A DNA stretch of 48,862 nt, taken from positions 1-48,862 of the forward strand of contig CANQKA010000004.1 of the NCBI GenBank assembly GCA_947624395.1, written 5' to 3'. The DNA comes from an uncultured Oscillospiraceae bacterium (GTDB lineage Bacteria; Bacillota; Clostridia; Oscillospirales; Oscillospiraceae). The translations under genes were made by a program, and so were the position numbers. This document shows positions 4,163 through 48,862 of this stretch, piece after piece. The first letter of the stretch is position 1. Each line of letters begins with the position of its first letter. Below the pieces are notes generated by a model. The model was not told the DNA's origin and searched no databases. It saw nothing but the letters and a program-made list of their open reading frames with translations.

Positions 4163-5269
4163 ATGTTCAACTTCACTGTCCCCTGTCTATTTGGCCTGGA
4201 AGGCCCATGTGCCGACGAGCTGCGGCGCATGGGCCTTGGTGACGTGCGGGCGGAAAACGGCCGGGTCCGCTTTACCGGGGACATGTCCGCCTGCGCCAAG
4301 GCCAACATCCGCCTTCGGACCGGGGAGCGGGTGCTGCTGCGGCTGGGAGCATTTGAGGCGCGCTCCTTTGACGCGCTGTTCGAGGGCGTGAAGGCCCTGC
4401 CCCTGGGGGACTTTATACCCCGAGACGGACAGTTTCCCGTGAAGGGGTATTCCCTGGACTCGGCGCTGCACTCTGTCCCGGACTGCCAGCGCATCATCAA
4501 AAAAGCCGCGGCGGTGAAGCTGGGCCAGACTTACCGCACCCAGTGGTTGTCCGAGACAGGAGCCCTCTATCAGCTGCAGTTTTCCATCATTAAAGACCAG
4601 GCGGAGATATTTTTGGACACCACCGGCGCGCCGCTTTTTAAGCGCGGCTACCGCCCCGGCCACGTGGCCGCCCCATTGCGGGAGACGCTGGCGGCGGCGC
4701 TGGTGGGTCTGGCCCGCTACCGGGGCCGTGACGCCCTCTGGGACCCTTTCTGCGGCAGCGGCACCATCCCCATCGAGGCTGCCCTCATCGCCCATAACCG
4801 CGCCCCAGGGCTTAACCGCCCCTTTGCCGCCCAAAGCTGGCCCATCGCGCCGGATAAGATCTGGGCCGACGCCAAAGACGAGGCCCGGAGCCTGGAATAC
4901 CCCGGCCCTTACCGCATCTTCGCTTCCGACATCGACCCCAAGGCCGTGGCCCTGGCAAGGGAAAACGCCCGCCGTGCGGGTGTGGAAGTTGACATAACTT
5001 TTTCTGTTTCCGATGCCCGCACCGCCTCTGCCCCCTGGGAGCAGGGCGCGATCGTGTGCAACCCGCCCTACGGCGAGCGGATGCTGGAGCGGCAGGAGGC
5101 GCAGCAGCTTTACCGGGACATGGGCCGGACGTTGGGCCGGTTAGAGGGCTGGAAGCAGTACATCATATCCTCCGAGCCGGACTTCGAGCGCTTTTACGGC
5201 GCGCCGGCGACCAAACGCCGCAAGCTCTACAACGGCATGATACTGTGTTATTTGAATATGTACTATTGA
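4163..5269 (+). CDS. THUMP-domain class I RNA methyltransferase, RlmL-like
   Basis: SAM-dependent RNA N2-guanine methyltransferase of the COG0116 type, 368 residues, probably acting on 23S rRNA as RlmL-N-type enzymes do. An N-terminal ferredoxin-like and THUMP region (roughly residues 1-150) precedes a Rossmann methyltransferase domain with motif I DPFCGSGT near residue 193 and motif IV NPPYGERM near 299, the combination typical of exocyclic-amino guanine methylation. The ATG at 4163 is preceded by GGAAGGAG; an in-frame GTG at 4124 falls inside the repeat and is unlikely. The gene contains one copy of the TTNACATAA nonamer (4989-4997). The exact target base is not readable from sequence. Confidence 0.88.
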   Translation: MFNFTVPCLFGLEGPCADELRRMGLGDVRAENGRVRFTGDMSACAKANIRLRTGERVLLRLGAFEARSFDALFEGVKALPLGDFIPRDGQFPVKGYSLDSALHSVPDCQRIIKKAAAVKLGQTYRTQWLSETGALYQLQFSIIKDQAEIFLDTTGAPLFKRGYRPGHVAAPLRETLAAALVGLARYRGRDALWDPFCGSGTIPIEAALIAHNRAPGLNRPFAAQSWPIAPDKIWADAKDEARSLEYPGPYRIFASDIDPKAVALARENARRAGVEVDITFSVSDARTASAPWEQGAIVCNPPYGERMLERQEAQQLYRDMGRTLGRLEGWKQYIISSEPDFERFYGAPATKRRKLYNGMILCYLNMYY

Positions 5270-5291
5270 CGCGCCACAGGAGGGCGCCTTT

Positions 5292-6176
5292 ATGACCATC
5301 AAGATCGCGTTTTTACAGCTTTTACCCTGCGGCAGCTTACAGGAGCAGCTGGAAAAGGGCATAGCGGCGTGCCGGCAGGCAAAGGAGCAGGGCGCGGACA
5401 TCGCGCTGTTCCCGGAGATGTGGAGCGACGGGTATGCCCTGCCCCAGGACGAGCAAGCCCTCCGGGAGTTGGCGATCCCCGCCGGCGGGCCGTTCGTAGC
5501 GGCCTTCGGGGACCTGGCCGCCGAGCTGCGCATGGCGATCGCGGTCACCTTCCTGGAACGCCACGAGCCAAAGCCCCTGAATTCCATGGTCCTTTTTGAT
5601 CGCCGTGGGCAGCGGCGGCTGCACTACGCCAAGGTGCACACCTGCGCTTTCGACCTGGAAAAGGTGCTCTCCCCCGGCGAGGGATTTTCCGTGACCGAGC
5701 TGGACCTGGGGCGCTGCACGGTGCAGGTGGGCGCGATGATCTGCTTTGACCGGGAGTTTCCCGAGAGCGCACGGCTTCTGATGCTCCAGGGCGCGGAGCT
5801 GGTGCTGGCCCCCAACGCCTGCCCCATGGAGCTCAACCGCCTGTCAGCGCTGCGCACCAGAGCCTATGAGAACATGATGGCGGTGGCCACCTGCAACTAT
5901 CCGGCGGGCCAGCCGGACTGCAACGGCCACTCTACGCTGTTCGACGGCGTGGCATGGCTGCGGGATGAGCCCGGATCTCGGGACATGTGCGTCTTTGAGG
6001 CGCCGGAGGCGGAGGGCATCTACATCGCCGAACTGGACCTGGACCGGCTGCGCCAATACCGGGCCCATGAGATCATGGGGGACAAATACCGCCACCCGGA
6101 GACATACGGTGCACTGGCCGCGGAAGGCTGGGGCTTTGCCCCCGAATCGGCCCCGGCAGGGGACGGCCCCCTCTGA
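5292..6176 (+). CDS. Nitrilase-superfamily carbon-nitrogen hydrolase
   Basis: Amidase or carbamoylase of 294 residues with the Glu-Lys-Cys triad of the superfamily: E42 in FPEMW, K114 in YAKVH, and C151 in GAMICFDREFPE. No signal peptide is present, so it is cytosolic. The substrate (an amide, carbamoyl amine or amidated amino acid) cannot be read from sequence. AGGAGGG precedes the ATG. The 3' end runs into a family A repeat: the final Gly-Pro-Leu codons and the TGA stop are part of the repeat, so the original C-terminus may have been changed when the repeat arrived. A 23-base gap separates it from the upstream methyltransferase gene. Confidence 0.88.
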   Translation: MTIKIAFLQLLPCGSLQEQLEKGIAACRQAKEQGADIALFPEMWSDGYALPQDEQALRELAIPAGGPFVAAFGDLAAELRMAIAVTFLERHEPKPLNSMVLFDRRGQRRLHYAKVHTCAFDLEKVLSPGEGFSVTELDLGRCTVQVGAMICFDREFPESARLLMLQGAELVLAPNACPMELNRLSALRTRAYENMMAVATCNYPAGQPDCNGHSTLFDGVAWLRDEPGSRDMCVFEAPEAEGIYIAELDLDRLRQYRAHEIMGDKYRHPETYGALAAEGWGFAPESAPAGDGPL

Positions 6177-6218
6177 CGAGGGGGCTGTCAGCGCCTTTGG
6201 CGCTGACTGGGGGAGAGA
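6165..6218 (+). repeat. Double-hairpin repeat, family A copy 2
   Basis: Stem 1 GCCCCCTC/GAGGGGGC with loop TGAC, stem 2 GTCAGCGC/GCGCTGAC with loop CTTTG, tail TGGGGGAGAGA. Its first bases encode the last three residues and stop codon of the hydrolase gene. Confidence 0.92.
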
Positions 6219-6276
6219 AAACAACAGTCCATCATACCCTCTAAATTCATCGTGCCAAATTTGTGCAGCTTGCCAG

Positions 6277-17891: not shown

Positions 17892-18638
17892 TTATTTCCT
17901 AAACACGAACAGGTATTCATGGGCGATAAGCAAGAAATTATACTTCACGCTGTTGGTTTTCCAATATCCTGTTGCTTTGCAGTTGTGCTGCTCTTTGATG
18001 ATGATTTCTTTCAGCTTAAAACCCGCATTTTCAAAGATGCGCATGACCTCAAACGACATGGGGACCATGTGTCCTTTTTTCCTGGTGTCACCCATAAGAA
18101 TAACGCAGAATTTGTCCTTCTTCAATACGCGATGGCATTCGGATGCGACCTTTTCCATCTCCACGAGGAAATCTTCTATTTTCAGATTGGACAGATCTTC
18201 CGGTATATCCTCGCTGTATTTTATGATGTCGGCATACGGCGGATGGGTACATATCAGGTCGATGCTCTTATCGGGAATGAAGTCAAGGCGTCTGGCGTCG
18301 CCCTTGTGTATGTAGACTTTACCGTTGGCGCCATCGTGCTCAAAATCCGTCTTTTCACGGCACCTAGCCAAAGCTGCGTCGTTTACATCAACGCCGATTA
18401 TATCGCGGTTAAGCAGCTTCGCTTCAACGAGCGTAGTTCCGCCGCCGGCGAATTGGTCGAGGACGAGGTCGCCCTCCCTGGAATAGCGAAGCATGATATT
18501 CCGTGGAATATACGGCGACCAATTCCCGCGCCATTTTGCATCGTGGGTAGCCCAATCACCGCGCTGGGGAAAGGACCAGTGCGTTGTCATCTCTAGCTCA
18601 AAGTTCTCCGGCTCCCACTTTGGTATCTTTTTTGACAT
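17892..18638 (-). CDS. DNA methyltransferase, second enzyme of a DpnII-type system
   Basis: SAM-dependent DNA methyltransferase of 248 residues, last gene of the restriction-modification operon. The SAM site DQFAGGGTT (residues 61-69) comes before the catalytic motif THPPY (131-135), the reverse of the beta-class order in the DpnA enzymes I know; the start (HWSFPQRGDW) suggests a permuted N4/N6 enzyme. HPPY in place of DPPY or SPPY is unusual and leaves it open whether adenine N6 or cytosine N4 is methylated. Its ATG overlaps the endonuclease stop codon by one base (TAATG). The DNA is much more AT-rich than the surroundings. Confidence 0.82.
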   Translation of the reverse strand: MSKKIPKWEPENFELEMTTHWSFPQRGDWATHDAKWRGNWSPYIPRNIMLRYSREGDLVLDQFAGGGTTLVEAKLLNRDIIGVDVNDAALARCREKTDFEHDGANGKVYIHKGDARRLDFIPDKSIDLICTHPPYADIIKYSEDIPEDLSNLKIEDFLVEMEKVASECHRVLKKDKFCVILMGDTRKKGHMVPMSFEVMRIFENAGFKLKEIIIKEQHNCKATGYWKTNSVKYNFLLIAHEYLFVFRK

Positions 18639-19516
18639 TAGGTAAGTACCTCGCTGATTATGCCATTCTCAAGGTCTGCGATGTTGTAGATATGTTCCAT
18701 TACATCAAAGGTCTCTTCGAGGTTATTTCTGGCACTTGACCATCCTTTTCCATCGGTAAACCAAACGAAAGTAAAACCGTCAATAGTATCCGCCTCAAGC
18801 GCAAGTGTCTTATAACTCCTGGCCGTTTCATTCAGCTTGCTGCCGCCGCTGCCGTAAAAATTGGTCTCAATCCCGTAAATCATCTCCGGCGTTTTGACAA
18901 CAAAGTCAAAACGCTTTTCCATTTTGCCTTGATTGGAAATGGCGGAAAGATCTATGTCCCACTTCTCCGTAATCTGATGTATGTACATCTCTTTGTAATA
19001 GGAAAGATTCTTAACAAAACCGGCCTTTTTGATAAAACCCTCCACTAAGTCTTCCATCAAGTGACCACCGCGGTTCTTTCTTCCATTGGAATCAAGACCA
19101 GTTTCAACTCCTGTGGCATAATCCACTAGATTGTTGATAATATGATTTTCCAACAAATCAAAAAGTCCTGTCTTATCCATAAAATATGAGTACAATTCAT
19201 ATTTCGACGAGTTACCGGTAGCACAGTCCCACTTGTCAAACTGAAAGAGATATCCTCCATTTTCGTCCTGACAGTAAATTTCATTTGCTCTTACCGCCAA
19301 GAGAAGTGGGATACACTTCAATACTTCAGGATATTTGCTAAGTAGCCTCTTGAAATCTTCCTTTATGCTCTTTGAACCAATAAGTGAGTTAAGGATATTG
19401 AGCTCAACCTTGATCTTATCGACGTTTTGATGAACCTTCTCAAAATCAACATAGTAGCCATAGTCAGCTATGCTATCACGAAACATAGATAGCCAAGTAT
19501 TAAAGTTTCTCGCCAT
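18638..19516 (-). CDS. DpnII-family type II restriction endonuclease (GATC)
   Basis: This 292-residue endonuclease resembles DpnII/MboI family enzymes that cut unmethylated GATC. The diagnostic segment GVETGLDSNGRKNRGGHLME (residues about 136-155) and the core RFDFVVKTPEMIYGIETNFY followed by GSGGSKLNETARSYK are family hallmarks. D204, E217 and nearby residues would form the PD-(D/E)xK-like metal site. The ATG at 19516 has GAGGTAA before it and lies one base after the preceding stop; upstream in-frame starts would overlap the preceding gene. GATC specificity is inferred from the family and from the Dam-type partner. Confidence 0.9.
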   Translation of the reverse strand: MARNFNTWLSMFRDSIADYGYYVDFEKVHQNVDKIKVELNILNSLIGSKSIKEDFKRLLSKYPEVLKCIPLLLAVRANEIYCQDENGGYLFQFDKWDCATGNSSKYELYSYFMDKTGLFDLLENHIINNLVDYATGVETGLDSNGRKNRGGHLMEDLVEGFIKKAGFVKNLSYYKEMYIHQITEKWDIDLSAISNQGKMEKRFDFVVKTPEMIYGIETNFYGSGGSKLNETARSYKTLALEADTIDGFTFVWFTDGKGWSSARNNLEETFDVMEHIYNIADLENGIISEVLT

Positions 19517-19517
19517 A

Positions 19518-20054
19518 TTATTTACCTCTGCCCCCGAATCCAGCTGTGGATATGATTTTAAAGATATCGCGATCCGTGTCCAGCAGTTCCTCAATAATGT
19601 TTCCGAACATGTAGGCATCGACACGATTTGTCTTTTCCTGTACGGCTAACAGCTCCATCAAAACGTAGAGAAACTCAACATCATATTCGCCAAAAGCGTT
19701 TAGACTATAAAACTGCTCAATGTCAATGTCATTTTCACCGTTTTCAATTAGTTCCTTTAACGTATCATAATCATTATTGGCAAGTGGCGCGCACGATGTC
19801 CAGCAATGTTGAATAGCGCGCAAATACCTCTTGGCAAGTATTTCATTCCCCTGCATTTTCATCAAAACGTCTACTACCCAATGAATATGCTTGGGGGTAC
19901 GAATGCGCGTGCCGTCCTTCCTGTACTTGATTACGATATCAAACTGCGACAAATCTCCTTGAAAAACATAGATAATATAATTTGTGAAAATGAATTCTAT
20001 AATGGCTTGTTTCGTGCCATTCTCAATAAGTTGTCTTCCTCTCCTGATTTCCAT
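19518..20054 (-). CDS. Uncharacterised protein inside the DpnII-type operon
   Basis: A 178-residue, mostly helical, mildly acidic protein with no motif I recognise, no signal peptide and no membrane helix. It sits between the Dam-like methyltransferase and the endonuclease, with a 20-base gap before it and one base after it, so it is clearly part of the operon. It shares the low GC of the cassette. The classical DpnII system has only two methyltransferases and the endonuclease, so this is an extra component. Candidate roles (control protein, inhibitor or chaperone of the endonuclease) are guesses. A ribosome site AGAGGTTGACAT precedes the ATG. Confidence 0.8.
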   Translation of the reverse strand: MEIRRGRQLIENGTKQAIIEFIFTNYIIYVFQGDLSQFDIVIKYRKDGTRIRTPKHIHWVVDVLMKMQGNEILAKRYLRAIQHCWTSCAPLANNDYDTLKELIENGENDIDIEQFYSLNAFGEYDVEFLYVLMELLAVQEKTNRVDAYMFGNIIEELLDTDRDIFKIISTAGFGGRGK

Positions 20055-20074
20055 ATGTCAACCTCTTTAACCTC

Positions 20075-21142
20075 TCAAAAATTAGATATGAGCAATTCCT
20101 TAATCTTGCCCCGTGCCTCGCTGTTGCTGTTAATCATTCGGCTTGCGGCAACACGAATAATATTATGGCCCACATAGATTTCATCAAAGAAATAGTCTTC
20201 CGCATTTGCGTTCTGGGGATCAGAATTGCTTACGACAATTTTTGCTCCCCGTTTGTCCATCTCATTCACAAACACCGCCAGTTCTTTCTGCTCTGCGTCG
20301 CCAAAGGCGTTTTCGCTGTACGCCGTGAAGCTTGAAGTCTGCGTGAGGGGCCTGTACGGCGGGTCAAAGTACACAAACGTGTTGCTGTCAATAAAATTGG
20401 CCGAAAGCCTATAATCCCCGCAGACGATTTGGACGTTTTTCAGCTTGTCCGACACGGCGCGCAGGTTGGCCTCGTCGCAAATCAGCGGATTCTTATAGGA
20501 ACCTATCGGAACATTAAAAAGTCCGTGTCTGTTTACCCGATAGAGGCCGTTAAAGCACGTCCTGTTCAGGAAAATCATCAGCGCGGCCTCATAGACCCGA
20601 GCTTTATCGTCGCAGCTTATTATCAGGCTGTTGAATTGCTCTCTCTTGTTGGTGTAATACTGCCTTCTTTCCTCTGTGTCCATCGGCTGATACTCGCGCT
20701 GGTACCCGGCCAGAAGGTCGATCAGTTTGTCCACCTCATCCCGGATGACCTGGTATGCGTTCATCAGCTGCGGATTGATGTCGCTGATATACACCGCCTC
20801 AAGGTCAAAGCGGTCGAGAATGTCAAACAGTACGGCGCCGCCGCCCACAAACGGCTCGGCATACTTGGTAATTGTTTTTCCGTCAAATGGATAGTAGCGC
20901 TCTATTTCGTGAAGGAGCTGACCTTTGCCACCCGCCCATTTCAAAAAGGGCCTGACGGCGCCCTCGGGTTTGCTGTACCGGACGCTCCTGGCATCCGAGG
21001 GTTTCTCCGCGTCGGCAGGAAGGACCCACATATTTCCCACCATGACGGCGTTTGGGATTCGGTTCTCTGCGCATAGGACGGCCACCCGCCTCTGCGAAAT
21101 GCCCCACTTCTCCGCCGCATCTTTCGCTGCCATGATATCCAT
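20075..21142 (-). CDS. dam: Dam-type N6-adenine methyltransferase with N-terminal HTH
   Basis: D12-class (DpnM/Dam) adenine methyltransferase of 355 residues, expected to methylate GATC. The core runs from FLKWAGGKGQLL (residues 66-77), through EPFVGGGAVLFD, to DPPY at 260-263 followed by RPLTQTSSFTAYSENAF. Ahead of it are about 60 residues absent from minimal enzymes: MAAKDAAEKWGISQRRVAVL and ENRIPNAVMVGNMWVLPADA, the pattern of a MerR/excisionase-type helix-turn-helix. The fused domain may let the enzyme regulate its own operon, as some methyltransferases do. GGAGGAAGCAAT precedes the ATG at 21142. It is the first gene of the operon. Confidence 0.9.
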   Translation of the reverse strand: MDIMAAKDAAEKWGISQRRVAVLCAENRIPNAVMVGNMWVLPADAEKPSDARSVRYSKPEGAVRPFLKWAGGKGQLLHEIERYYPFDGKTITKYAEPFVGGGAVLFDILDRFDLEAVYISDINPQLMNAYQVIRDEVDKLIDLLAGYQREYQPMDTEERRQYYTNKREQFNSLIISCDDKARVYEAALMIFLNRTCFNGLYRVNRHGLFNVPIGSYKNPLICDEANLRAVSDKLKNVQIVCGDYRLSANFIDSNTFVYFDPPYRPLTQTSSFTAYSENAFGDAEQKELAVFVNEMDKRGAKIVVSNSDPQNANAEDYFFDEIYVGHNIIRVAASRMINSNSEARGKIKELLISNF

Positions 21143-21182
21143 ATTGCTTCCTCCAAAAATGGGCGTTATTGTTCTTGTGGAC

Positions 21183-21211
21183 ATTATATTCTACATCTCG
21201 AATAATAGCAA
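21183..21211 (-). promoter_or_regulatory. Promoter of the restriction-modification operon
   Basis: Read leftwards: TTGCTA (21206-21211), 17 bases, TATAAT (21183-21188). The spacer and flanks hold an imperfect inverted repeat (ATATTC-TACATCTC-GAATAA on the plus strand) that could be an operator. Confidence 0.75.
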
Positions 21212-23034: not shown

Positions 23035-24272
23035 GCCTTTCCCTCCAACAAAAGCTCCCGCAGATGCCCGATGTAATAAAGCGACCCGAATGCGCACACC
23101 GGCTCTTCATAGCCCCGGCACAGCGCCAGCGCCTCCGGCAGACTGTCCGCCGTCAGCGCGGGCACAGATTTGACCGCCGCCGCCAGTTCACCCCCCGGCA
23201 GGGCCCGCGGGCTGTCGTCCGGCGCGACACAGATAAACCGCGCCGCCAGCGGCTCCATGATTTTTAACACACCAAGCCAGTCCTTGTCGGCCATGGCCCC
23301 CATGAGCATGGTGCACTTTTGCCCCGGCAGGTATTCCCGCAGCCCCGCCGCCAATGCCGCGGCCCCGTGGGGGTTATGTGCCCCGTCCAATATAACCGGC
23401 GGCGCGCCCGGTATATACTCGAACCGGCAGGGCCATTTTGCCGACTTCAGCCCCGCTCGGATGTCCCGCTCCGAAAGCCCCAGCACCCGGCACGCCTCCA
23501 GCACCGCGCAGGCGTTCTCCGCCTGATGCCGCCCCAGCAGACCGATGTCCACGTCCGCCATATCCCCGTAGGAAAACCGCTGCCCCGCCAGGGAATAAGA
23601 CCCAAGGCGCAATTTATTTATGTCAACTTCATGCAGGCTCGCGCCCACCGTCTCGCACCGGGCCCGTATCACGTCCCGCGCCTCGATCGGCTGAGGCGCG
23701 CACACCACCGGGCAGCCGGCTTTCACGATACCGGCCTTCTCCCCGGCAATGGCCGTCAGGGTATCGCCCAGCACGGCCGTGTGGTCCAGCCCGATGGGCA
23801 TGATCACCGACACGGCGGGCTTTTCGATCACATTCGTGGCGTCCAGCCGACCGCCCAGACCTGTCTCCAGCACCACGTAGTCGCACCGCTTCTGGGCGAA
23901 GTATAGAAACGCGGCGGCGGTCATCTTCTCAAAATAGCTGGGCTCGTCCAGCCCCCGGCACGCCTCCCGGACCCGGGCCGTGACAGCGGCGAAGTCCGAT
24001 AGATTTATGTCAACTCCATCCACCTTTATCCGCTCCCAGGGGCCGGTCAGGTCCGGGGAGGTGTAAAGCCCCGTGCGGTACCCGGCTGCCTGTAAAACGG
24101 CGGCGGTCATGGCGGCACAGGAGCCCTTGCCGTTGGTCCCGGCGATGTGCACGCACCGCAAGCCCGCCTGTGGGTCGCCAAGAGCCGCGCACAGCTCGCC
24201 CATGACCGCCAGACCGGGGGCGTGGGTGAACTTGGGCGTTGCCGTATAAAATTGGAGATGATCAGTGTCCAT
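23025..24272 (-). CDS. folC: Folylpolyglutamate / dihydrofolate synthase
   Basis: This 415-residue Mur-ligase-family enzyme adds glutamate to folates. The P-loop GTNGKGS is at residues 45-51, preceded by the family's FYTATPKFTHAPGLAVM start. LETGLGGRLDATN (near 131) and GLDHTAVLGDTLTAIAGEKAGI (near 152) are FolC signatures, and VILDGAHNPHGA (near 295) is the C-terminal motif. The ATG at 24272 has no ribosome site but lies six bases after an extended -10 box, suggesting leaderless mRNA. It heads the folC-fchA-folD operon. The gene carries two TTNACATAA nonamers (23618-23626, 24005-24013). Confidence 0.93.
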   Translation of the reverse strand: MDTDHLQFYTATPKFTHAPGLAVMGELCAALGDPQAGLRCVHIAGTNGKGSCAAMTAAVLQAAGYRTGLYTSPDLTGPWERIKVDGVDINLSDFAAVTARVREACRGLDEPSYFEKMTAAAFLYFAQKRCDYVVLETGLGGRLDATNVIEKPAVSVIMPIGLDHTAVLGDTLTAIAGEKAGIVKAGCPVVCAPQPIEARDVIRARCETVGASLHEVDINKLRLGSYSLAGQRFSYGDMADVDIGLLGRHQAENACAVLEACRVLGLSERDIRAGLKSAKWPCRFEYIPGAPPVILDGAHNPHGAAALAAGLREYLPGQKCTMLMGAMADKDWLGVLKIMEPLAARFICVAPDDSPRALPGGELAAAVKSVPALTADSLPEALALCRGYEEPVCAFGSLYYIGHLRELLLEGKAWN

Positions 24273-24278
24273 ACCCGC

Positions 24279-24873: not shown

Positions 24874-25353
24874 ATGATGGAAAAGCTTGATTTGGACGTT
24901 TTCAGCGCCTTTGCGGACGATTGGGCCCTGGTGACCGCCGGGACCCAGGGGGACTACAACACCATGACCATCGGCTGGGGCGGTCTGGGCACCTTGTGGA
25001 GCCGGCCGGCCGCCACGGTCTATGTGAAGCGCAACCGCTATACCCATGACTTTATGGAGAAGAACGACATGTTCACCGTCAGCTTCTTCCCGGCTGAATA
25101 TAAGAAGGCTCTTGGCTATCTTGGCTCCCATTCCGGCCGGGAGGGGGACAAGGTGGCGGCCTCCGGCCTGACGCCGGTGTACCTGGACAACGCCGTGACC
25201 TTCCAGGAGGCCAGCGTGACGCTGCTGTGCCGGAAGATATATTCCCACGACTTCGACGTATCCGCCGTACCTGCGGACGTAAAGCGGAGCTACTACGAAG
25301 ACGAGCCGCCTCACACCATCTACATCGGCGAAGTAGTTGACATAATTCGATAA
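24874..25353 (+). CDS. Flavin reductase family protein (FMN-binding split barrel)
   Basis: This 159-residue protein matches the flavin reductase-like FMN-binding family: NTMTIGWGGLGTLWSRPAATVYVK near residue 29, a polar RYTHDFMEKNDMFTVSF strand pair, and LGYLGSHSGREGDKV near 82. Such proteins bind FMN and reduce it or use it as an electron carrier; the partner is unknown. AAGGAG precedes the ATG pair at 24874/24877. It is cotranscribed with greA. A TTNACATAA nonamer (25337-25345) covers its last codons, where the protein ends VVDIIR. Confidence 0.85.
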   Translation: MMEKLDLDVFSAFADDWALVTAGTQGDYNTMTIGWGGLGTLWSRPAATVYVKRNRYTHDFMEKNDMFTVSFFPAEYKKALGYLGSHSGREGDKVAASGLTPVYLDNAVTFQEASVTLLCRKIYSHDFDVSAVPADVKRSYYEDEPPHTIYIGEVVDIIR

Positions 25354-28876: not shown

Positions 28877-28892
28877 TCCTTCCTTATTCAAA

Positions 28893-28943: not shown

Positions 28944-28971
28944 CATATTAATTAAATCCTTTTCCTTGTTG

Positions 28972-29274: not shown

Positions 29275-29282
29275 GAAAAACT

Positions 29283-34131: not shown

Positions 34132-35348
34132 AAAACCTGCGACGGGCCCTGACGGCCCTTATGACGCTGGCGCTTATTTTGGCGCTGGCCCCGGCGGCTC
34201 TGGCGGACAGGGAATCGTCCGGCAAAGAGGAAGTGGTTTACATAAATCTTGACCCCACCGGCGCTGTAAGCACGGTGGACGTGGTGAACATCTTTGATAT
34301 GCCCGCTGCGGGCCGCATCGTGGACCACGGGGATTATTCCTCTGTGCGGAACATGACCACCACCGACGCGTTGACCCTCTCGGACGGGACCGTGACGGCG
34401 GACGTGGGACCGGGGAAGCTCTATTACGAGGGCCGCCTGGAAAACGCCTCCATCCCCTGGCTCGTTTCCATCCGCTATTATCTGGACGGGCAGGAGCTGG
34501 ACGCGGAAGATTTGGCGGGAGAGAGCGGCGCGCTGGAAATTCGCCTGACGGCGGCGCGCAATACGGCCTGTGCCGGGACGTTTTTCGACGACTACGCCCT
34601 GCAGATATCCTTCACCCTGGACGGGGATAAGTGCGACAACATCGCCGCGCCGGGTGCCACCGTTGCCAACGTGGGCGGGGACAAGCAGCTGACCTACACC
34701 GTCCTTCCCGGCATGGGCGCGGACATTTCCTTCACCGCGGACGTGACGGACTTTGCCATGGACCCCATCGCGCTCAACGGCGTGCGTTTGTCTCTGGACG
34801 TGCCCCTGGGGGACGGCTCCATGTCCGGCGGGCTGGACCAGGCGGGCGCGGCCATCCTGGACCTGGACCGGGGGCTTTTCAGCCTGGAAAATGACCTGGC
34901 GGCCCTGACCGGCCAGTCCAAGGACCTGACCGGCGGGCTGGCGGATGTCCAGGCGGCGCTGGATAAGCTGGGGGACGACCCGGAGGCACAGGAGGCGCTG
35001 GACGCTCTGGCCCAGGCATTGGAGGGCTATACCCGGGCCGTGCAGGACGCTTACCTGGACGCCGGCGAGGTCCGCCAGGACGCGGACTGGCTCACCACCG
35101 CCTCGGCGCTGCTTACGGTGCTTGGCCCCACCATGGGGGAGGACGCCGGCGAGCTTTCGGACACGCTTGCGGGCGTCACCGGCGCCGCCGAACCGCCCAC
35201 GTCCTTTGCCTCGGCGGAAAACGGGACCGTTGCGTCGGTGCAGTTCGTGCTGCGCACCCCGGCCATCGAAAAACCCGCCCCGGCAGAGGCGGAACCGACG
35301 CCCGCCCCGGAGCAGACCTTCTGGGAAAAGCTCGCCGCGCTGTTTTGA
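34128..35348 (+). CDS. Exported protein coupled to the RND transporter
   Basis: This 406-residue protein has a signal peptide (basic start, hydrophobic core, APAALA cleavage site near residue 26), a beta-rich N-terminal domain with YxNLDPTGAVSTVDVVNIF, a helical middle (residues about 245-345, Leu/Ala/Asp-rich), and a Pro/Glu-rich tail ending FWEKLAALF. No membrane anchor follows the signal. Such proteins recur beside MMPL-type genes in Clostridia and may act as the extracellular or adaptor part of the pump (inference). The ATG overlaps the transporter stop. A TTNACATAA nonamer lies at 34237-34245. Confidence 0.82.
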   Translation: MKNLRRALTALMTLALILALAPAALADRESSGKEEVVYINLDPTGAVSTVDVVNIFDMPAAGRIVDHGDYSSVRNMTTTDALTLSDGTVTADVGPGKLYYEGRLENASIPWLVSIRYYLDGQELDAEDLAGESGALEIRLTAARNTACAGTFFDDYALQISFTLDGDKCDNIAAPGATVANVGGDKQLTYTVLPGMGADISFTADVTDFAMDPIALNGVRLSLDVPLGDGSMSGGLDQAGAAILDLDRGLFSLENDLAALTGQSKDLTGGLADVQAALDKLGDDPEAQEALDALAQALEGYTRAVQDAYLDAGEVRQDADWLTTASALLTVLGPTMGEDAGELSDTLAGVTGAAEPPTSFASAENGTVASVQFVLRTPAIEKPAPAEAEPTPAPEQTFWEKLAALF

Positions 35349-36865: not shown

Positions 36866-36892
36866 ATATTCTTTTCCCTGGGTATAGATCAA

Positions 36893-36947
36893 GGCCCCCT
36901 CTGACGAGGGGGCTGGCTCCGGCGCAAGCCGGAGACTGGGGGAGAGA
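36893..36947 (+). repeat. Double-hairpin repeat, family A copy 9 (changed stem 2)
   Basis: Stem 1 unchanged; stem 2 CTCCGGC-GCAA-GCCGGAG; tail TGGGGGAGAGA. It abuts the 3' end of the acyltransferase gene. Confidence 0.9.
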
Positions 36948-36951
36948 CATT

Positions 36952-38112
36952 TCACATCTTCCGCAGTCCGATCCGCCGTATGGGCCTCTCCCACAGATAC
37001 GTCAGCCCCGCGGACAATAGCACGGCAAAGCCGAAGCACGCCAGCGTGTACAGCAGCTGCCAGGGCTGCTCGTACGCCTGGTTGGGAAGCTCCGCCCTGT
37101 AGGGCGGGATGTGCAGGTCCTTGAGCCTCAGCGCCAAAAACTGGTGGGTCATGTAAAAGTTGAAGGAGATATCCGCCAGAAACCGGGTCACGGGATTGCC
37201 CAGCGCCTTGGCAAGCCTGGTTGGCGCCATACACCCGCACAGCAGGAAGCACCCGCCCAGCAGCCCCAGCGGCAGCCGCCCGTCCATTTGCCCGTGGCGA
37301 ATGGCCTCATAGTCGCCGATGGGCTGGACGTACATGATGCCCAGCATGCCGATCAAACACAGCGCCATGCCCACCGGTGCGATAACGCGCCGGTGCTTGT
37401 CCGCCGGCATGCCCTCACGCTCCATGCGGGCCAGGAGCCACGCCGCGCCCATGCCGCAGGCGTACAGGTCCAGTTGGGCGGGGAGCTGGTTGAAGTACAT
37501 GGAGCAGTCGCCCTCCCCATAGACCCACGCCCGGTAGGAAAAGGCCAGCGCTACCAGCGCCAGACATGTCCGCCCCGGACGGCGCACATAGGCCCTGGCG
37601 ATGAGCGGCCAGAGAAGATAAAACTGTACCTCCACCGCCAGCGTCCACAGCACCCCGGACAGGGGCGTGAGCAGGTAGCTGTCGTAAAAAAGCGTGTGGG
37701 TGAAGGTCAAATGGGCCCACAGGTCCTTTAAAATTGCCCACCCGGACCGGTACAGCCCCTGGGGCAGCGCCCAGATGAGCATTAACATAACAACAAGATA
37801 ATAGGACGGCACGATACGCCAGAACCGCTTGCGGTAAAACGCCTCCGGCGGCTCGACCGCCTCCGCCGGCGTGCCCGCCAAAGCCCGCCGCGCCACGGGA
37901 AGCGCCAATAAAAACCCGGACAGCAGCAGCATCTCGTCCACCATCATGTACCCGTGGCGGACCACATTCTGTAAGTTTACATAATATTTACCAATGAAAA
38001 ATCCCGGGTCCAGCCAGCTCTGCTGCCAGATGTGAAACCAGGCCACGATGAAAATGCTGAACACCCGCAGCACGTCCGGCGCGGCCATCCGGCCCGTCGC
38101 CTTACCGCTCAT
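36952..38112 (-). CDS. Acyltransferase 3 family membrane protein (OafA-like)
   Basis: This 386-residue membrane protein has about ten helices and no soluble C-terminal domain. The first helix FSIFIVAWFHIWQQSW carries the conserved His, and FYRKRFWRIVPSYYLVVML (near residue 109) holds the R-x(2)-R-IxP-Y motif of acyltransferase 3 proteins, which O-acylate sugars or lipids at the envelope. A polar loop near LSGVLWTLAVEVQFYLLWPL matches the usual catalytic-site helix. The ATG at 38112 follows TTGGAGG and overlaps trmB by 11 bases. A TTNACATAA nonamer lies at 37976-37984. Confidence 0.88.
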   Translation of the reverse strand: MSGKATGRMAAPDVLRVFSIFIVAWFHIWQQSWLDPGFFIGKYYVNLQNVVRHGYMMVDEMLLLSGFLLALPVARRALAGTPAEAVEPPEAFYRKRFWRIVPSYYLVVMLMLIWALPQGLYRSGWAILKDLWAHLTFTHTLFYDSYLLTPLSGVLWTLAVEVQFYLLWPLIARAYVRRPGRTCLALVALAFSYRAWVYGEGDCSMYFNQLPAQLDLYACGMGAAWLLARMEREGMPADKHRRVIAPVGMALCLIGMLGIMYVQPIGDYEAIRHGQMDGRLPLGLLGGCFLLCGCMAPTRLAKALGNPVTRFLADISFNFYMTHQFLALRLKDLHIPPYRAELPNQAYEQPWQLLYTLACFGFAVLLSAGLTYLWERPIRRIGLRKM

Positions 38113-38806
38113 GGGCCGCCTCCAAAGGCGCATGCCGCCGCTCCGATTCCGGCAGGGGTGCATGCTCGGCCTTTGTCTTGACCGCCACGCACCGGTGGAT
38201 AGGCACGCCCTGCTCGTAAAATTTCGCCTCGTAGTTGGTCATGACGCCCACGGGCCCATGCTTGTGCAGGTCCCTTGTGACCTCCCGCAGCTCGTAGCCC
38301 AGCGCGGCGAACTGCTCCAGCGACCAGTCGAACAGCCAGGGCTGGTCGGTCTTGTACTCGATGCGCCCGCCGATGGGCAGCGCGTCCCAGTACATGGCCA
38401 GAAATTCCGGCGCGGTGAGCCGGTGTTTTGCCTCCCGCTTTCTTGGCCAGGGGTCCGGGAAGTTGATGTAGATGACCGACACTTCCCCCGGCGCGAATAT
38501 GTCCGGCAGGTTCGCCACGTCCGTGTCGATGAAGCGCACGTTTGGTATTTCCTCGGCGCACACCCGCTCCATGGCGGTGACCATGGCGTTGGGCACCTTT
38601 TCCAGCGCCACCAGCAGCGCCTCCGGCGTTTCCCGTGCCACGCCGGCGGTGAACGCGCCCTTGCCGCAGCCCATCTCCGCCCGAACTTCCCGGCAGTCGG
38701 GCAGAAGCTTTGCCCACCGGCCCTTTAAGGCCGACGGGTCGAACACCTGCACCGCCGCGCATTTTTCCATCCGGGGGATGAGGTTTTTCTTGTTTCGCAT
38801 CCGCAT
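38102..38806 (-). CDS. trmB: tRNA (guanine-N7-)-methyltransferase
   Basis: This 234-residue enzyme makes m7G46 in tRNA variable loops. Family signatures are EMGCGKGAFTAG (SAM site, near residue 44), NVRFIDTDVANL, INFPDPWPRKREAKHRLTAPEF (near 112, the PDPWP-KxxHxxRR motif) and YKTDQPWLFDW (near 150). GGAGG lies nine bases before the ATG at 38806. It is followed by the acyltransferase gene with an overlap, an apparently unrelated partner. Confidence 0.95.
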   Translation of the reverse strand: MRMRNKKNLIPRMEKCAAVQVFDPSALKGRWAKLLPDCREVRAEMGCGKGAFTAGVARETPEALLVALEKVPNAMVTAMERVCAEEIPNVRFIDTDVANLPDIFAPGEVSVIYINFPDPWPRKREAKHRLTAPEFLAMYWDALPIGGRIEYKTDQPWLFDWSLEQFAALGYELREVTRDLHKHGPVGVMTNYEAKFYEQGVPIHRCVAVKTKAEHAPLPESERRHAPLEAAHER

Positions 38807-38918: not shown

Positions 38919-38956
38919 CATTTTATAAAATAATGTTTGAGGGAGGTCGCGTCACG

Positions 38957-41506
38957 ATGAAACGCACATTGAGCCTTCTTTTAGCGGTGTTGATGGTGCT
39001 GACGCTGTATGTCCCCGCCCTGGCGGAGGAAGCCCCCGAGGTCATCCCGGAGGTCACGGAAGCGCCGGAGGTCACGGAAGCGCCGGAAGTGACGGAAGAA
39101 CCGGCAATCACTCCGGAACCGGAAGTCCCGGCCGAGCCGGAGACCGTCGCCGCACTCCCCACGGCTAAGCTGACCGGCATTGCCAGCATACAGGACGGGA
39201 TGCAGATCACCTGGGACCCGGTTCCCGGCGCGGTCCAGTACCGGCTCTATTACGCCTATCCCACCAATTTTACCTGGCGGTTGATAACGATGACCGAGGA
39301 CACGACCTACGTTTGGCCCATTGCGCCCAGCGGCGAGGATGTCTGTATCAGGATCCAGAGCGTCGCCGCCGACGGCACCTATGGCACGTCCGGGTCCTAT
39401 TACACCGTCCGCTACGTAGCCACGCCCAGGCCAACGGCGGAAGCCTGGCTCAGCGGGGTCTATCTCAAATGGGATCGCGTGGCCGGCGCGAAAAAATACC
39501 GGGTGTTTTATAAGACCGGGGACAGCGACTGGATCGCGCTGACGGACACCACGGATACCTCCTGGATCTGGAGCGAGGCGAAATTCGGCGCCTTCACCTT
39601 TGCGGTCCGCTGCTACGACAGCACGGGGCAGAACCCCCTGAGCGACTACGGCGTCACGAAGCCCCTCTCGTATATCCCCACCGGCAGGATGACCTCCGCC
39701 GAGAACACCATGGAGGGGATCAGGCTCACCTGGCCCTCGTTCGACGCGCCCCTGTACCGGGTGCTGTGCAGGACCGACGGCGAATGGACGGCCCTGGCGG
39801 AGGTAGCCGACACCGGCTATACCTGGACCGGCGGCGTGACGGGCACACGCTATACCTTCATGGTCCAGTGCCTGGACGGAGCCGGCAACAGCGGCGCCAT
39901 TGGCCTTGCGAGCCAGTCTGTGGACTATGTGGCCGCCACGAGCCTGACTTCCGCGGCCTGGGGCAGCGACGGTGTGCAGCTGCACTGGAACGAGGCCCCG
40001 GGCGTGGCACAATACCGGTTATATTACCGTATCGGCGGCGGGGAATGGACCGCGCTTGCCGGCGTGACGGGGACCGAGTACACCTGGACCGGCGCCGACC
40101 CCTCCGCGATCTACGCCTTCACGGTCCAGTGCATGGACGCGGCGGGCCACACGGGCGCCTATGACGGGACGGGCCTGACCGTGAACGCCAAGGCCGCTCC
40201 CACGGTGAAGGCCGCCAACGGCTACGGCGGCGTAAAGATAACCTGGAGCGAGATAAAGGGCGCCGAGCGGTATCGTGTTTTTGGCATGACCGCCAGCGGG
40301 AAAAAGTGGGTGCGTCTTGCGGACGTAACGGGGACCAGCTACCTGTGGACCTCCGCCAAAAACGGGGGCACGTACGCCTTTGCGGTCCGTGGTCTGACCG
40401 GCGACGGCAAGGCATATACCAGCCCCTACAGATCCAGCTCCAACCTGAAATATATGGCCGCGCCGGTGATGAAGACCGCCGCGTGGAGCGGCAAGAGCGT
40501 GAAGCTTTCCTGGGGCGCGGTGACCGGCGCGGCGCAGTACCGGGTGTTTTACAAGACCGGCGGCGGCAAGTGGACGAAGCTTGCCGACACGAAGGCGACC
40601 AGCTACACCTGGACCAAGGCCAAAGCCAACACGGTCTATTTCTTCACGGTCCGTTGTCTCAGCGCCAACGGCAAGAGCTTCACCAGCGATTATAACGCCG
40701 CCGGCAAGCTGCTGGCGGCCACCGCCGCGCCCAAGCTGACGGGTGCGGCATGCGAGCTGGACGGGGTGAAGATAACCTGGCAAAAGCTGTCCGGCGCGGA
40801 GAATTACCGCCTGTACTACAAGACCGGCAAAGGCGGCTGGACGAAGCTGGCCGACACGGCCTCTACCTCCTACACCTGGACCGGCGCGGCCAGCGGCACA
40901 AAATACGCCTTCACGGTCCGCGGCCTCACCGCCGACGGCAAGAGCTTCACCAGCGCCTATGACAAGACGGGCAAGAGCGTGACCTATATCGCCGCGCCAA
41001 AGCCGTCGGTGTCCAGCGCGTCCGACGGGGTAAAGATAAGCTGGGAGGCGGTTCCCGGCGCGGCGCAATACCGGGTGTTCTATAAAAACGACGCCGGCAA
41101 GTGGACGAAGCTGGCCGACACGGCCGCCACGGACCACACCTGGACCGGCGCCAGCAACGGGACCACGTACACCTTCACGGTCCGGTGCCTCAGCGCCAAC
41201 GGCAAGAGCTTCACCAGCGCCTTTGACACCAACGGAAAGACCATCACCTATGACGACGGCAGCAGCCATTCCGGCGGCAGCTCCGGGTCCTCCGGCGGCA
41301 GCTCCGGCGGCAGCAGCATTCCCGACATGGGCCATGAGCGCACATGCAGCATTTGCGGCGGCACCGGCCGGCGGACCTGCCTGAGCTGCAGCGGTCTGGG
41401 CCACGTCCTGGGGGACTTCACCCGGCGCTGCTCAAGCTGCGGCGGCCTTGGCTGGAGGCCGTGCAGCACCTGCGGCGGCGACGGCAAGATATTCAGCTGG
41501 ACCTGA
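38957..41506 (+). CDS. Exported FN3-repeat protein with C-terminal DnaJ-like zinc finger
   Basis: An 849-residue protein: a signal peptide (residues 1-23, ending ALA), a Pro/Glu spacer with PEVTEA repeats (about 26-55), then eight fibronectin type III-like repeats of about 90 residues with shared phrases (ITW, YRVFYKTG, WTKLADT, YTWTGA, FTVRCLSANGKSFTS), and a Gly/Ser linker. The last 55 residues hold four CxxCxGxG-type motifs (CSICGGTG, CLSCSGLG, CSSCGGLG, CSTCGGDG), the pattern of the DnaJ zinc finger. No LPxTG or membrane anchor is present. It probably works outside the cell; what it binds is unknown. The ATG at 38957 follows GGGAGGT; the ATG at 38933 precedes that site and is rejected. 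Confidence 0.88.
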   Translation: MKRTLSLLLAVLMVLTLYVPALAEEAPEVIPEVTEAPEVTEAPEVTEEPAITPEPEVPAEPETVAALPTAKLTGIASIQDGMQITWDPVPGAVQYRLYYAYPTNFTWRLITMTEDTTYVWPIAPSGEDVCIRIQSVAADGTYGTSGSYYTVRYVATPRPTAEAWLSGVYLKWDRVAGAKKYRVFYKTGDSDWIALTDTTDTSWIWSEAKFGAFTFAVRCYDSTGQNPLSDYGVTKPLSYIPTGRMTSAENTMEGIRLTWPSFDAPLYRVLCRTDGEWTALAEVADTGYTWTGGVTGTRYTFMVQCLDGAGNSGAIGLASQSVDYVAATSLTSAAWGSDGVQLHWNEAPGVAQYRLYYRIGGGEWTALAGVTGTEYTWTGADPSAIYAFTVQCMDAAGHTGAYDGTGLTVNAKAAPTVKAANGYGGVKITWSEIKGAERYRVFGMTASGKKWVRLADVTGTSYLWTSAKNGGTYAFAVRGLTGDGKAYTSPYRSSSNLKYMAAPVMKTAAWSGKSVKLSWGAVTGAAQYRVFYKTGGGKWTKLADTKATSYTWTKAKANTVYFFTVRCLSANGKSFTSDYNAAGKLLAATAAPKLTGAACELDGVKITWQKLSGAENYRLYYKTGKGGWTKLADTASTSYTWTGAASGTKYAFTVRGLTADGKSFTSAYDKTGKSVTYIAAPKPSVSSASDGVKISWEAVPGAAQYRVFYKNDAGKWTKLADTAATDHTWTGASNGTTYTFTVRCLSANGKSFTSAFDTNGKTITYDDGSSHSGGSSGSSGGSSGGSSIPDMGHERTCSICGGTGRRTCLSCSGLGHVLGDFTRRCSSCGGLGWRPCSTCGGDGKIFSWT
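39164..41250 (+). repeat. Eight tandem FN3-coding repeats
   Basis: Roughly 270-base units coding for the FN3 repeats. The last four are most alike (for example AAGAGCTTCACCAGC and CTGGCCGACACGG recur), which indicates recent duplication towards the 3' end. Confidence 0.85.
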
Positions 41507-46371: not shown

Positions 46372-46419
46372 ATTCCATATTACAAGGGGGGCTTATTTAA
46401 ATGATTTTCCTTTTTCAAA

Positions 46420-46473
46420 GGCCCCCTCTGACGAGGGGGCTGTCAGCGCCTTTGGCGCTGACTGGGGGAGAGA
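46420..46473 (+). repeat. Double-hairpin repeat, family A copy 10
   Basis: Core identical to the copy at 6165: stem 1 GCCCCCTC/GAGGGGGC, stem 2 GTCAGCGC-CTTTG-GCGCTGAC, tail TGGGGGAGAGA. Confidence 0.92.
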
Positions 46474-46497
46474 CAGATTAAATTCCTTTCCTTATCG

Positions 46498-46565: not shown

Positions 46566-48128
46566 TCACATTCCCCCGATCACCGCCTCGGCGCACTTCA
46601 GCCCATCCACGGCGGCGCTCATGATGCCCCCGGCCCAGCCCGCGCCCTCGCCGCAGGGATAGAGCCCCGCCAGGGCGGGGGACTGGAGCGCGTCGGTCCG
46701 CACCATCCGCACGGGGCTGGAGGACCTTGTCTCCGGCCCGGTCAGCACGGCGTCGGGCGCGGCGAACCCCCGGAGCTTCCGGTCGAACAGGGGCAGGGCC
46801 CCTGCCAGCGTGTCTGTGATAACGCCTGGTAGAATATTATGTAAATCAACCAGTTTTACCCCCGGCCCGTAGGACGGCGTCACCCGCCCGATTCGGTCCG
46901 GTCCGGTACCCAGAAAACCGCCCACGGTCTGGGCTGGTGCCTTATACCCGCCCCCGGCCGCCTCATAAGCTATTCGCTCCAGCTCCCGCTGCCACTTCAC
47001 CCCGCCCAGCACGCCCTGATAGGGAAAGTCCTCCGGGGACAGAGCCGCCAGCAGCGCGGCATTAGAGTTAACATAATTTCTCTTATTCGGACTGGCCCCG
47101 TTGGTGCAGACCATCCCCGGCTCGCTGGCGGCGGGGACGACCTCGCCGCCGGGACACATGCAGAAGGTGTAGCACCGCCGGCCATTGGGAAGCTCCATGG
47201 CCAGCGCGTAATCGGCGGGGGGCAGGGCCGGATGACCGGCGAATGGACCGTATTGGGCCCTGTCCGTATCCGCCTGCAAATGCTCGATACGCGCCCCCAT
47301 GGCGAAGGGCTTGGGGACCATGGGTATCAATTTACATAACATTTCAAACGTGTCCCGTGCGCTGTGGCCGCAGGCCAAAATAAGCCTTGAGCAGCCGATA
47401 TGCTCGCCACTGCTTGTCACGGCGGCGGTCAACCGTCCTCCGTCGCTTTCCAGCCCGTCCAGACGGGTACTAAACCGCACCTCGCCGCCCAGACTTTCAA
47501 TGCGCCGCCGTATATTGGCGCAGATACCGGGCAGCATGTCCGTACCGATGTGGGGCTTGGCGTCATAAGTTATGTCAACATTTGCACCGGCCTCCACCAG
47601 TCGGTCCAGCACCCAAGGGATACGCCTGTCTTTCACGCAGGTGGAGAGCTTGCCGTCGGAAAAAGCCCCCGCGCCGCCCTCGCCGAACTGTATGTTGCAC
47701 TCCGGGTCCAAAACGCCCTCCCGGCGCAGCTGCTCCACCTTGGCGGTCCGGGCCTGGGAATCCTCGCCCCGTTCCAGCACGATGGGCCGCAGACCGGCCA
47801 TGGCCAGCGCCAGAGCCGCGAACATCCCGGCGGGCCCGAAGCCCACCACCACCGGCCTGTCGTCCGGCAGGCATGCTGGCATTGGCGGCGCGTAGTCGTT
47901 CACCGGTGCGGGCGCGGCGCCGGCGCACCGCGCCAGGGCGCCGGCCTGGTCCCGCACGGATACGTCCAGTGTGTACACAAAATGCACGTCCGATTTTCGC
48001 CGAGCGTCCACGGCCTTGCGGGCCACCCGCAGGGCCGTTATTTTCGTCCCCAGCGCCGCTTCCGCCTTGTCCCAGAGCTTTGTCTCGCCCTCGTCCAGGC
48101 CCAGGGCCACGTTTCGCAGCCGGATCAT
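46566..48128 (-). CDS. NAD(P)/FAD-dependent oxidoreductase family protein
   Basis: This 520-residue flavoprotein starts with a small domain (about 75 residues, MIRLRNVALGL to FVYTLDVSV) before the dinucleotide fold PVVVGFGPAGMFAALALAMAGLRPIVLERG (near residue 92), with NIQFGEGGAGAFSDGKLST as FAD contact and GLYPCGEGAGWAGGIMSAAVDG at the end. This is the COG2509-type family of uncharacterised dehydrogenases. The ATG at 48128 follows TTGGAGG and overlaps the neighbouring flavoprotein gene by ATGA. The gene contains four TTNACATAA nonamers, at which codon choice turns abruptly AT-rich. Confidence 0.9.
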   Translation of the reverse strand: MIRLRNVALGLDEGETKLWDKAEAALGTKITALRVARKAVDARRKSDVHFVYTLDVSVRDQAGALARCAGAAPAPVNDYAPPMPACLPDDRPVVVGFGPAGMFAALALAMAGLRPIVLERGEDSQARTAKVEQLRREGVLDPECNIQFGEGGAGAFSDGKLSTCVKDRRIPWVLDRLVEAGANVDITYDAKPHIGTDMLPGICANIRRRIESLGGEVRFSTRLDGLESDGGRLTAAVTSSGEHIGCSRLILACGHSARDTFEMLCKLIPMVPKPFAMGARIEHLQADTDRAQYGPFAGHPALPPADYALAMELPNGRRCYTFCMCPGGEVVPAASEPGMVCTNGASPNKRNYVNSNAALLAALSPEDFPYQGVLGGVKWQRELERIAYEAAGGGYKAPAQTVGGFLGTGPDRIGRVTPSYGPGVKLVDLHNILPGVITDTLAGALPLFDRKLRGFAAPDAVLTGPETRSSSPVRMVRTDALQSPALAGLYPCGEGAGWAGGIMSAAVDGLKCAEAVIGGM

Positions 48129-48862
48129 GCCAGCGCCTCCAACAGTCCCCCGGCGGCCAGACCCGCCAGCCGCCCGCTGGACCAGGCCCATTGGAGGTTA
48201 TACCCCCCGCAATCCCCGTCCACGTCCAGCACCTCGCCGCAGGCGTACAGACCGGGGACCAGCCGGCTTTCCATGGTCTCGGGGTCGAACCCGGCGGTGT
48301 CCACGCCCCCGGCGGTCACCTGCGCGTCGTCAAAGCCCAACGTCCCATGCAGCGCCAGCTCGTACCGGCACAGCGCGTCCGCCACCAGCTCCAGCGCCCC
48401 GTCGGACAATGCCCACAGCCGTGCCTCCTGGGGTATCTGCACCCGGCGCAGCACCGTCCGGGAGATTGCATTATGTAAAGCACCGGCCAGTAAACTTTCC
48501 GCTTTATAGTCCGGAAAATCGTCCCGCTTGGCCTTCATATAATCAATTATGTCAACTTTATCCAGCTCCGGCAGCAGCCGCAGACATACCGTGCACCCGC
48601 CCCCGGCGGTGGACGCTGCCCGGCTCAAATCATACACCCCCGGCCCGGTGACGCCGTAGTCGGTGAACTGGACCTCCCCGCTGGCCCTTGCCAGCACGGT
48701 CCCGTCCCGCTCCAATGTGAGGCCGGCCTGGGTGCGCACGCCCTTCATGGGCCTTGTCCAGGTGTTGTCGGTCTTGAGCTGGACCAGGGACGGGGCCAGG
48801 GCCGTGACGCCGTGGCCGAACCCGGCCAGCAGGTCGTACCCGGACCGGACGCCGCCCACCCG
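48125..48862 (-). CDS. HI0933/BaiN-family flavoprotein, C-terminal part
   Basis: Only about the last 245 residues are in the window; the N-terminal FAD-binding fold lies beyond the right edge. The end FDDAQVTAGGVDTAGFD, LVPGLYACGEVLDVDGDCGGYNLQWAWSSG is the diagnostic C-terminus of the HI0933/YhiN/BaiN family (aminoacetone oxidase-like or 3-dehydro bile acid reductase-like flavoproteins). Substrate cannot be assigned. An internal Met near the edge is not the start, because the preceding sequence is still open and in frame. It is coupled to the following oxidoreductase by ATGA and contains two TTNACATAA nonamers. Confidence 0.9.
   Translation of the reverse strand, partial: RVGGVRSGYDLLAGFGHGVTALAPSLVQLKTDNTWTRPMKGVRTQAGLTLERDGTVLARASGEVQFTDYGVTGPGVYDLSRAASTAGGGCTVCLRLLPELDKVDIIDYMKAKRDDFPDYKAESLLAGALHNAISRTVLRRVQIPQEARLWALSDGALELVADALCRYELALHGTLGFDDAQVTAGGVDTAGFDPETMESRLVPGLYACGEVLDVDGDCGGYNLQWAWSSGRLAGLAAGGLLEALA

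Follow-up and report, generated by a model that had tools for sequence, protein, structure and literature searches.

A Recurrent Word in Genes of Uncultured Oscillospiraceae as a Candidate XerD Half-Site

Copies of the Word in the Window

This work concerns a word of nine bases, TTNACATAA, that recurs on both strands of positions 1 to 48,862 of contig CANQKA010000004.1 (assembly GCA_947624395.1) of an uncultured Oscillospiraceae bacterium; this stretch of 48,862 bases is called the window below. A preliminary description, made from the sequence of the window, had listed twelve copies inside genes. All twelve coordinates are exact; however, a thirteenth copy (TTAACATAA, 37782..37790, +) had been overlooked. 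Composition-based gene calls place 12 of the 13 copies in genes, and the copy at 34237 lies in an uncalled open frame. The peptides VDI, VYI, LHN, YVN, and LCK, named earlier for the copies, were all confirmed.

The first copy (TTGACATAA, 4989..4997, +) is located in an RlmL-like methyltransferase gene (4124-5269, +) and reads V-D-I. Two copies of the same form are found in a Mur-ligase/FolC-like gene (23025-24395, −), at 23618..23626 (−, V-D-I) and 24005..24013 (−); the sister genome G002 has a copy at the aligned place of each, and the 387-base spacing is identical there. Another TTGACATAA (25337..25345, +) is close to the 3′ end of a flavin-reductase-like gene (24874-25353, +). The copy in the uncalled stretch (TTTACATAA, 34237..34245, +) reads V-Y-I, the surroundings being open in the frame biased towards GC at third codon positions (EEVVYINLDP), and it is also matched at the aligned place in G002. 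An acyltransferase-3 gene (36952-38163, −) contains the copy at 37782 and a TTTACATAA copy at 37976..37984 (+), which reads Y-V-N on the gene strand and has a G002 copy at the aligned place.

The remaining six copies lie in two adjacent flavoprotein genes. Those of the FAD-dependent oxidoreductase gene (46566-48191, −) are TTTACATAA at 46837..46845 (−, L-H-N), TTAACATAA at 47068..47076 (+, Y-V-N on the gene strand), TTTACATAA at 47331..47339 (+, L-C-K on the gene strand), and TTGACATAA at 47570..47578 (−, V-D-I). Those of the HI0933-like flavoprotein gene (48125-48859, −) are TTTACATAA at 48471..48479 (−, L-H-N) and TTGACATAA at 48547..48555 (−, V-D-I).

Enrichment of the Word

The number of copies expected by chance had been put at well under one for about 63 per cent GC. 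The GC content measured is 62.4%, and dinucleotide-preserving shuffles of the window contain 0.44 copies of TTNACATAA on average (at most 2 in 100 shuffles) versus the 13 observed. Two of the tests proposed in the preliminary description, a codon-aware null and a genome-wide count, both revealed an excess. Shuffling of synonymous codons within each gene gives 0.59 coding copies (at most 3 in 300 shuffles) versus 12 in the window, and the assembly of the bacterium (2.06 Mb, 131 contigs, 83% complete) contains 71 copies of TTNACATAA versus 20 of the backwards word, which served as the control. An excess over this control was found in 24 of 24 other genomes of the genus examined, and in other families several of 15 genomes are without any excess. 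Written as TTDACATAA, 13 of the 68 copies in the genome fall in the window, which makes up 2.4% of it (binomial 7e-9, a value that is not an unbiased p-value, since the window was chosen on account of its copies). Stretches of the same genome outside the window have 31 coding copies versus 2.07 under codon shuffling; for contigs C2 and C5 of G002, the values are 5 versus 0.84 and 1 versus 0.35, respectively.

Conservation in Relatives

The best 80 loci with relatives of the FAD-dependent oxidoreductase of the window were considered, of which the 23 closest were used (at least 70% identity, metagenome-assembled genomes titled Oscillospiraceae). They contain 107 copies of TTDACATAA versus one of the control in 369,795 bases, and 94 coding copies versus 3.11 under codon shuffling. 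Each of the six copies in the flavoprotein genes is found again at its aligned position in 10-22 of 22-24 rows, the window itself being one of the rows. In the oxidoreductase gene, the copies at 46837, 47068, 47331, and 47570 are kept in 14, 21, 22, and 10 of 24 rows, respectively, and those at 48471 and 48547 in the HI0933-like gene in 18 and 16 of 22 rows. At 47068, the free letter varies among A, C, and T across the rows.

Conservation at orthologous sites had been suggested as a check, and it is largely borne out: five of the six aligned sites are each retained in most relatives, but some relatives carry ordinary GC-rich codons there, so the sites are gained and lost. Where a site is lost, mostly GC-rich codons are found instead, often for other amino acids. 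In G002, a copy at the aligned place was found for 29 of the 67 copies of the bacterium compared, a figure in which two of the 29 share one G002 copy and which covers part of G002. The genome-wide excess, the excess over codon shuffling, and the retention at orthologous positions in both gene orientations firmly support the earlier proposal that the constraint on the word acts at the DNA level. Across this uncultured genus, the word stays in place both within genes, at odds with codon preference, and in intergenic DNA.

Sequence and Arrangement of the Motif

The consensus of 66 copies from 41 stretches, nearly all of which were fetched because they contain copies, is R-G-T-T-D-A-C-A-T-A-A-T. 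Position −1 is G in 45 of the 66 copies, T follows the word in 41, and 45 copies lie in called genes. The free letter gives TTTACATAA in 28 copies, TTGACATAA in 24, and TTCACATAA in 3; C is avoided, being present in 3 of 66. Thus, the recurrence of the nonamer described earlier holds, but its free letter, given as N, has to be corrected to D. Among TTATGNNAA words, the genome of the bacterium has TA in 28 cases, TC in 25, TT in 13, and TG in 3, and G002 has TA in 45, TC in 25, TT in 14, and TG in 2.

Spacings of ACATAA pairs peak at 14 (12), 28 (4), and 42 (2) bases, and the backwards control has none at these distances. Close neighbouring copies are direct repeats, and no inverted pair of the word within 60 bases was seen in the pair scan. 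Contig C2 of G002 carries two near-identical arrays (L140:8032-8083 and L140:17368-17419), each made up of four units of 14 bases that end in ACATAA; they are 9.3 kb apart, and a hairpin-like sequence comes after each.

Similarity to the XerD Arm of dif

On the opposite strand, AGTTDACATAAT reads ATTATGTHAACT, a word of about 12 bases that takes the same form as the XerD arm of dif. They correspond to positions 17-28 of the B. subtilis dif, and twelve motif positions match. The XerD arms of dif are TTATGTAAACT in B. subtilis, TTATGTTAAAT in E. coli, and TTATGTCAAGT in F. alni (PMC3025954); across these three, the free letter is exactly A, T, and C. The right arm of dif is the conserved one, as stated in a review (PMC5357621).

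The similarity to the XerD arm was noted before xerD was located in the genome. This gene is found on contig G000:C43 (TIGR02225, 345.7 bits with a cut-off of 329.6), and its product is related to E. coli XerD (1a0p, E 9e-57). The catalytic residues of XerD are R, K, H-x-x-R, H, and Y, and these are present in the alignment with 1a0p.

Several candidates for a dif site were rejected. A Bacillus-like dif pattern gave two matches at 3 mismatches in 35 genomes of the genus, neither of them dif-like in the XerC arm, and a looser pattern matched in 15 of 35 genomes, with none convincing among the matches inspected. The best dif-like composites in genes (L057, L133, and L136) sit in apparent coding sequence.

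The letters of the DnaA box, parS, and matS consensus sequences do not fit the consensus of the 66 copies, and parS was found separately, at places other than the copies. DpnII recognizes GATC, which is absent from the word, and the word is therefore not a target of the DpnII-type restriction-modification genes of the window. Uptake sequences have very many copies per genome, usually hundreds or more; here there are 71, about 20 of which are at the control level. No positive evidence was found for an uptake, methylation, or transposition target, in tests of these functions that were not exhaustive. A function at the RNA level was set aside, since the copies are on both strands of genes.

The xerD Promoter

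The promoter of xerD in the genome of the bacterium is TTGATT-17 bases-TATATT, with TTATGTTAA following 11 bases on; if the −10 hexamer ends at −7, the word would occupy approximately +6 to +14. TTATGT[CT]AA is located just downstream of the −10 box in 29 of 30 xerD loci of the genus and is absent in one. Strong matches in 35 genomes numbered 33, of which these 30 loci were fetched, and tblastn confirms xerD at all of the 30, with 82-100% identity. For any of the 71 copies in the genome to start by chance no more than 60 bases upstream of xerD, the probability is about 0.002. Among the functions considered in the preliminary description, a site of a segregation protein is the one favoured by the likeness to the XerD arm and by the copies in the xerD promoters. 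A literature search, with most subscription papers outside its scope, found no description of xerD autoregulation via such a site.

The region upstream of xerD (e.g., L242-L269) also contains a conserved palindrome resembling TTACAAAANGTAAC and a GTTACTTTTAAC block; at 12 of the 30 loci they form, with TTATGNNAA six bases on, a composite that resembles dif. The composite GTTACTTTTAA-N6-TTATGNNAA was not called dif, because it is found at only these 12 of 30 loci and the XerC-like arm alone at 20. About 80 bases upstream of xerD are common to L030 (start of G000:C33) and L032/L138 (end of G000:C43), so these contigs probably adjoin.

Copies of the longer word RGTTDACATAAT that were sampled in other families (10 of 10 in G191, 4 of 4 in G221, and 7 of 11 in G247) had no XerD match nearby. 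This says little, because the xerD promoter copies are without the G that the longer word demands.

Distribution Along the Chromosome

On the five largest contigs of G002, the copies number 7, 17, 1, 2, and 16, a very uneven spread (chi-square p 3e-9; 1e-6 when tandem neighbours are counted as one). Contigs C2 and C5 together have 33 copies versus 5 of the control, 320 kb of C3 and C4 have 3 versus 5, and 80 kb of C6 and C7 have 0 versus 0. Contig C4 carries dnaX and the large signal recognition particle (SRP) RNA, from which it looks origin-side; it is the sole contig so placed. RNA and protein landmarks did not place the dense stretches relative to the terminus. In the 16 motif-rich genomes probed, each by one or two of its contigs, the first contig never exceeds 278 kb. 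In G191, a genome of another family assembled as one contig, the longer word has 10 copies, distributed across 2.3 Mb.

ParB-family (ParB/Noc) and ParA-like genes and parS are present. A copy of the motif near parS has the same sequence context in five genomes (L037, L186, L196, L197, and L198). In the genome of the bacterium, where GPR was tested, the GPR spore protease gene adjoins a double parS.

Distribution Across the Order

The longer word RGTTDACATAAT was surveyed in 295 genomes of the order, and its distribution is patchy. The genome of the bacterium has 26 copies versus 0 of the control; the values are 27 versus 0 and 29 versus 1 in g18, and 34 versus 0 and 32 versus 1 in g30. In g17, 2 versus 2 copies were counted over four genomes, and none were found in two genomes of g31. 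Family f19 has 446 versus 49 copies in total over 30 genomes (summed by hand). In family f23, the 14-bp tandem pair is also present (L307), and two genera have the same word context within a gene (L297 and L306).

Part of the excess in family f8 is a dispersed repeat. In genome G031, which belongs to a family other than that of the bacterium, a dispersed repeat holds the word beside a CCTTCCCCTTCGAGGGGAAGG-like hairpin (L202/L203, L211, L212, and L216). Two inverted copies of an apparent mobile element, 2.96 kb apart on two contigs of this genome, are one region assembled twice.

Possible Function and Alternative Explanations

Taken together with the xerD promoter copies, the likeness to dif makes it reasonably probable that the word is a XerD-binding half-site with a part in SMC unloading and in self-control of xerD; XerD is its likely binder. 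We infer XerD binding, repression, and SMC unloading, and the role is proposed by reasoned analogy. XerD would bind solo half-sites such as AGTTTACATAAT without its XerC partner. On the half-site of its own promoter, it would hinder transcription and so set its own level, whereas elsewhere the bound protein may block or unload SMC complexes that move along the DNA, as is reported for XerD at the terminus of B. subtilis. SMC would be removed at dense stretches, of which the window is one, and at the 14-bp tandem arrays. The removal of SMC and the part of the chromosome marked by the dense stretches are the least certain steps.

Karaboja et al. 2021 reportedly described XerD-binding sites (XDS) of the B. 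subtilis terminus at which XerD unloads SMC. The copies considered here are similar to them in the form of the XerD half-site, the presence of an encoded XerD, the several sites per region, and the presence of a ParB-family gene and parS; unlike XDS, they include a conserved copy beside parS, many copies in genes at a codon cost, 14-bp tandem arrays, and the xerD promoter copy. The unloading of SMC by XerD in the terminus region of B. subtilis is reported in four papers (PMC12322038, PMC8357415, PMC9564211, and PMC10945525). With dif, the copies share the XerD arm; however, pattern and arm scans found no 6-bp spacer and XerC arm at copies of the window type, and there are dozens of copies versus one dif. 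The sites in genes and the 14-bp tandem phasing suggest a variant set apart from known XerD sites.

The protein and the word of the matS/MatP system of E. coli are unrelated to those here. The likeness lies in a dispersed word: the protein bound to matS keeps the SMC complex (MukBEF) away. This effect can be seen once three sites are spread across 78 kb and reaches its maximum at nine sites across 253 kb (PMC10945525). However, matS is confined to the terminus, whereas the copies here form regional clusters without a skew switch.

A number of observations weigh against a XerD half-site of this kind. Neither the raw skew nor the fourfold-site skew split by gene strand showed a switch at the clusters, and the site-rich contig C5 is on one skew side. 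A copy in gpr, 0.67-2.95 kb from parS, is conserved in five of five genomes, which is odd for an SMC unloader. In several genera of the same family, the longer word is no commoner than the control. No canonical dif was found with Bacillus-like patterns in the genome of the bacterium and 35 genomes of the genus, with a looser pattern in 35, or in scans of the fetched XerD arms, so the word is not comparable with the XerD arm of the genus's own dif. The xerD promoter copies have C or T at −1 in 28 of 29 cases and A in the remaining one, versus the G usual in the other copies. On the site-rich contigs of G002, the majority of the copies are intergenic. Finally, 27 of the 31 coding copies outside the window are antisense to the gene, mostly in the Y-V-N frame, and protein tolerance therefore shapes the placement of the copies.

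Some of these observations would suit another regulator, for example a transcription factor on 14-bp direct repeats that controls xerD and other genes, the likeness to the XerD arm being coincidental. The tandem copies are direct at 14, 28, and 42 bp and not inverted as in dif, the promoter copies of xerD differ at −1, and many G002 copies are intergenic. Such a coincidence would have to extend over the twelve motif positions that match the end of the B. subtilis dif and over the permitted free letters, which known dif sites also show. A position deep in genes, on either strand, as in many of the conserved copies, is unusual for a promoter regulator. We consider this explanation unlikely, though it retains some weight.

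An origin in mobile elements is much less probable. Such elements would take advantage of Xer recombination or have the word as the end bound by their transposase, and the copies would be either their remnants or their targets. The four-unit arrays, found twice 9.3 kb apart on contig C2 of G002, and the hairpin repeat that accounts for part of the excess in G031 are in line with this idea. However, the genes that contain the window copies are not interrupted, alignment with relatives shows no insertion at the copies, and the apparent inverted pair of G031 is due to double assembly.

An absence of any site function, with the word kept by protein constraint (Y-V-N and V-D-I) and by −35 boxes (TTGACA) of promoters, appears slightly less probable again. 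It would explain the antisense Y-V-N copies and the context shared by two genera of f23, and intergenic TTGACATAA copies can be −35 boxes; however, codon shuffling yields 0.59 copies and not 12, and 3.11 and not 94, other amino acids or GC-rich codons occur where the word is lost, and TTTACATAA (28 of 66 copies) is at least as common as TTGACATAA (24), with TTCACATAA in 3. Chance or an artefact of composition, towards which the selection of the window for its copies might point, is practically negligible in view of the 71 versus 20 copies in the genome, the excess in 24 of 24 sister genomes, and the 26 versus 0 copies of the longer word.

If the word is indeed a XerD half-site, XerD might be an architectural protein of the whole chromosome that represses its own gene from a solo half-site and fills dozens of half-sites in housekeeping genes and 14-bp arrays, forming zones of SMC roadblock or unloading beyond the terminus, including the neighbourhood of parS. 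We put this forward tentatively and regard it as rather doubtful. Were it true, the patchiness across the order would reflect a network gained and lost genus by genus. Most of what is known about the removal of SMC from DNA, and about how widely XerD takes part in it, comes from B. subtilis. In the present genus, candidate sites are recognizable in the sequence, since they persist at their positions in different species at the expense of preferred codons; this allows comparative tests of the site grammar: single or tandem at 14 bp, orientation, and position relative to parS. The xerD promoter copy suggests feedback control of the unloader.

Other Features of the Window

A low-GC island at 17892-21184 contains a DpnII-family restriction enzyme and two adenine-methylase-family genes; it is probably a horizontally acquired GATC restriction-modification system. 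The large gene at 38933-41506 encodes fibronectin-III-like repeats, three copies of about 235 bases, and its product is probably a surface protein. An element of about 60 bases with two hairpins (GGCCCCCTCTGACGAGGGGGCTGTCAGCGC...GCGCTGACTGGGGGAGAGA) has eight copies in the window, at 2073-2132, 6164-6223, 25452-25511, 25537-25596, 28892-28951, 29224-29283, 36892-36951, and 46419-46478. Its core hairpin is found at 14 places of the window with at most two mismatches.

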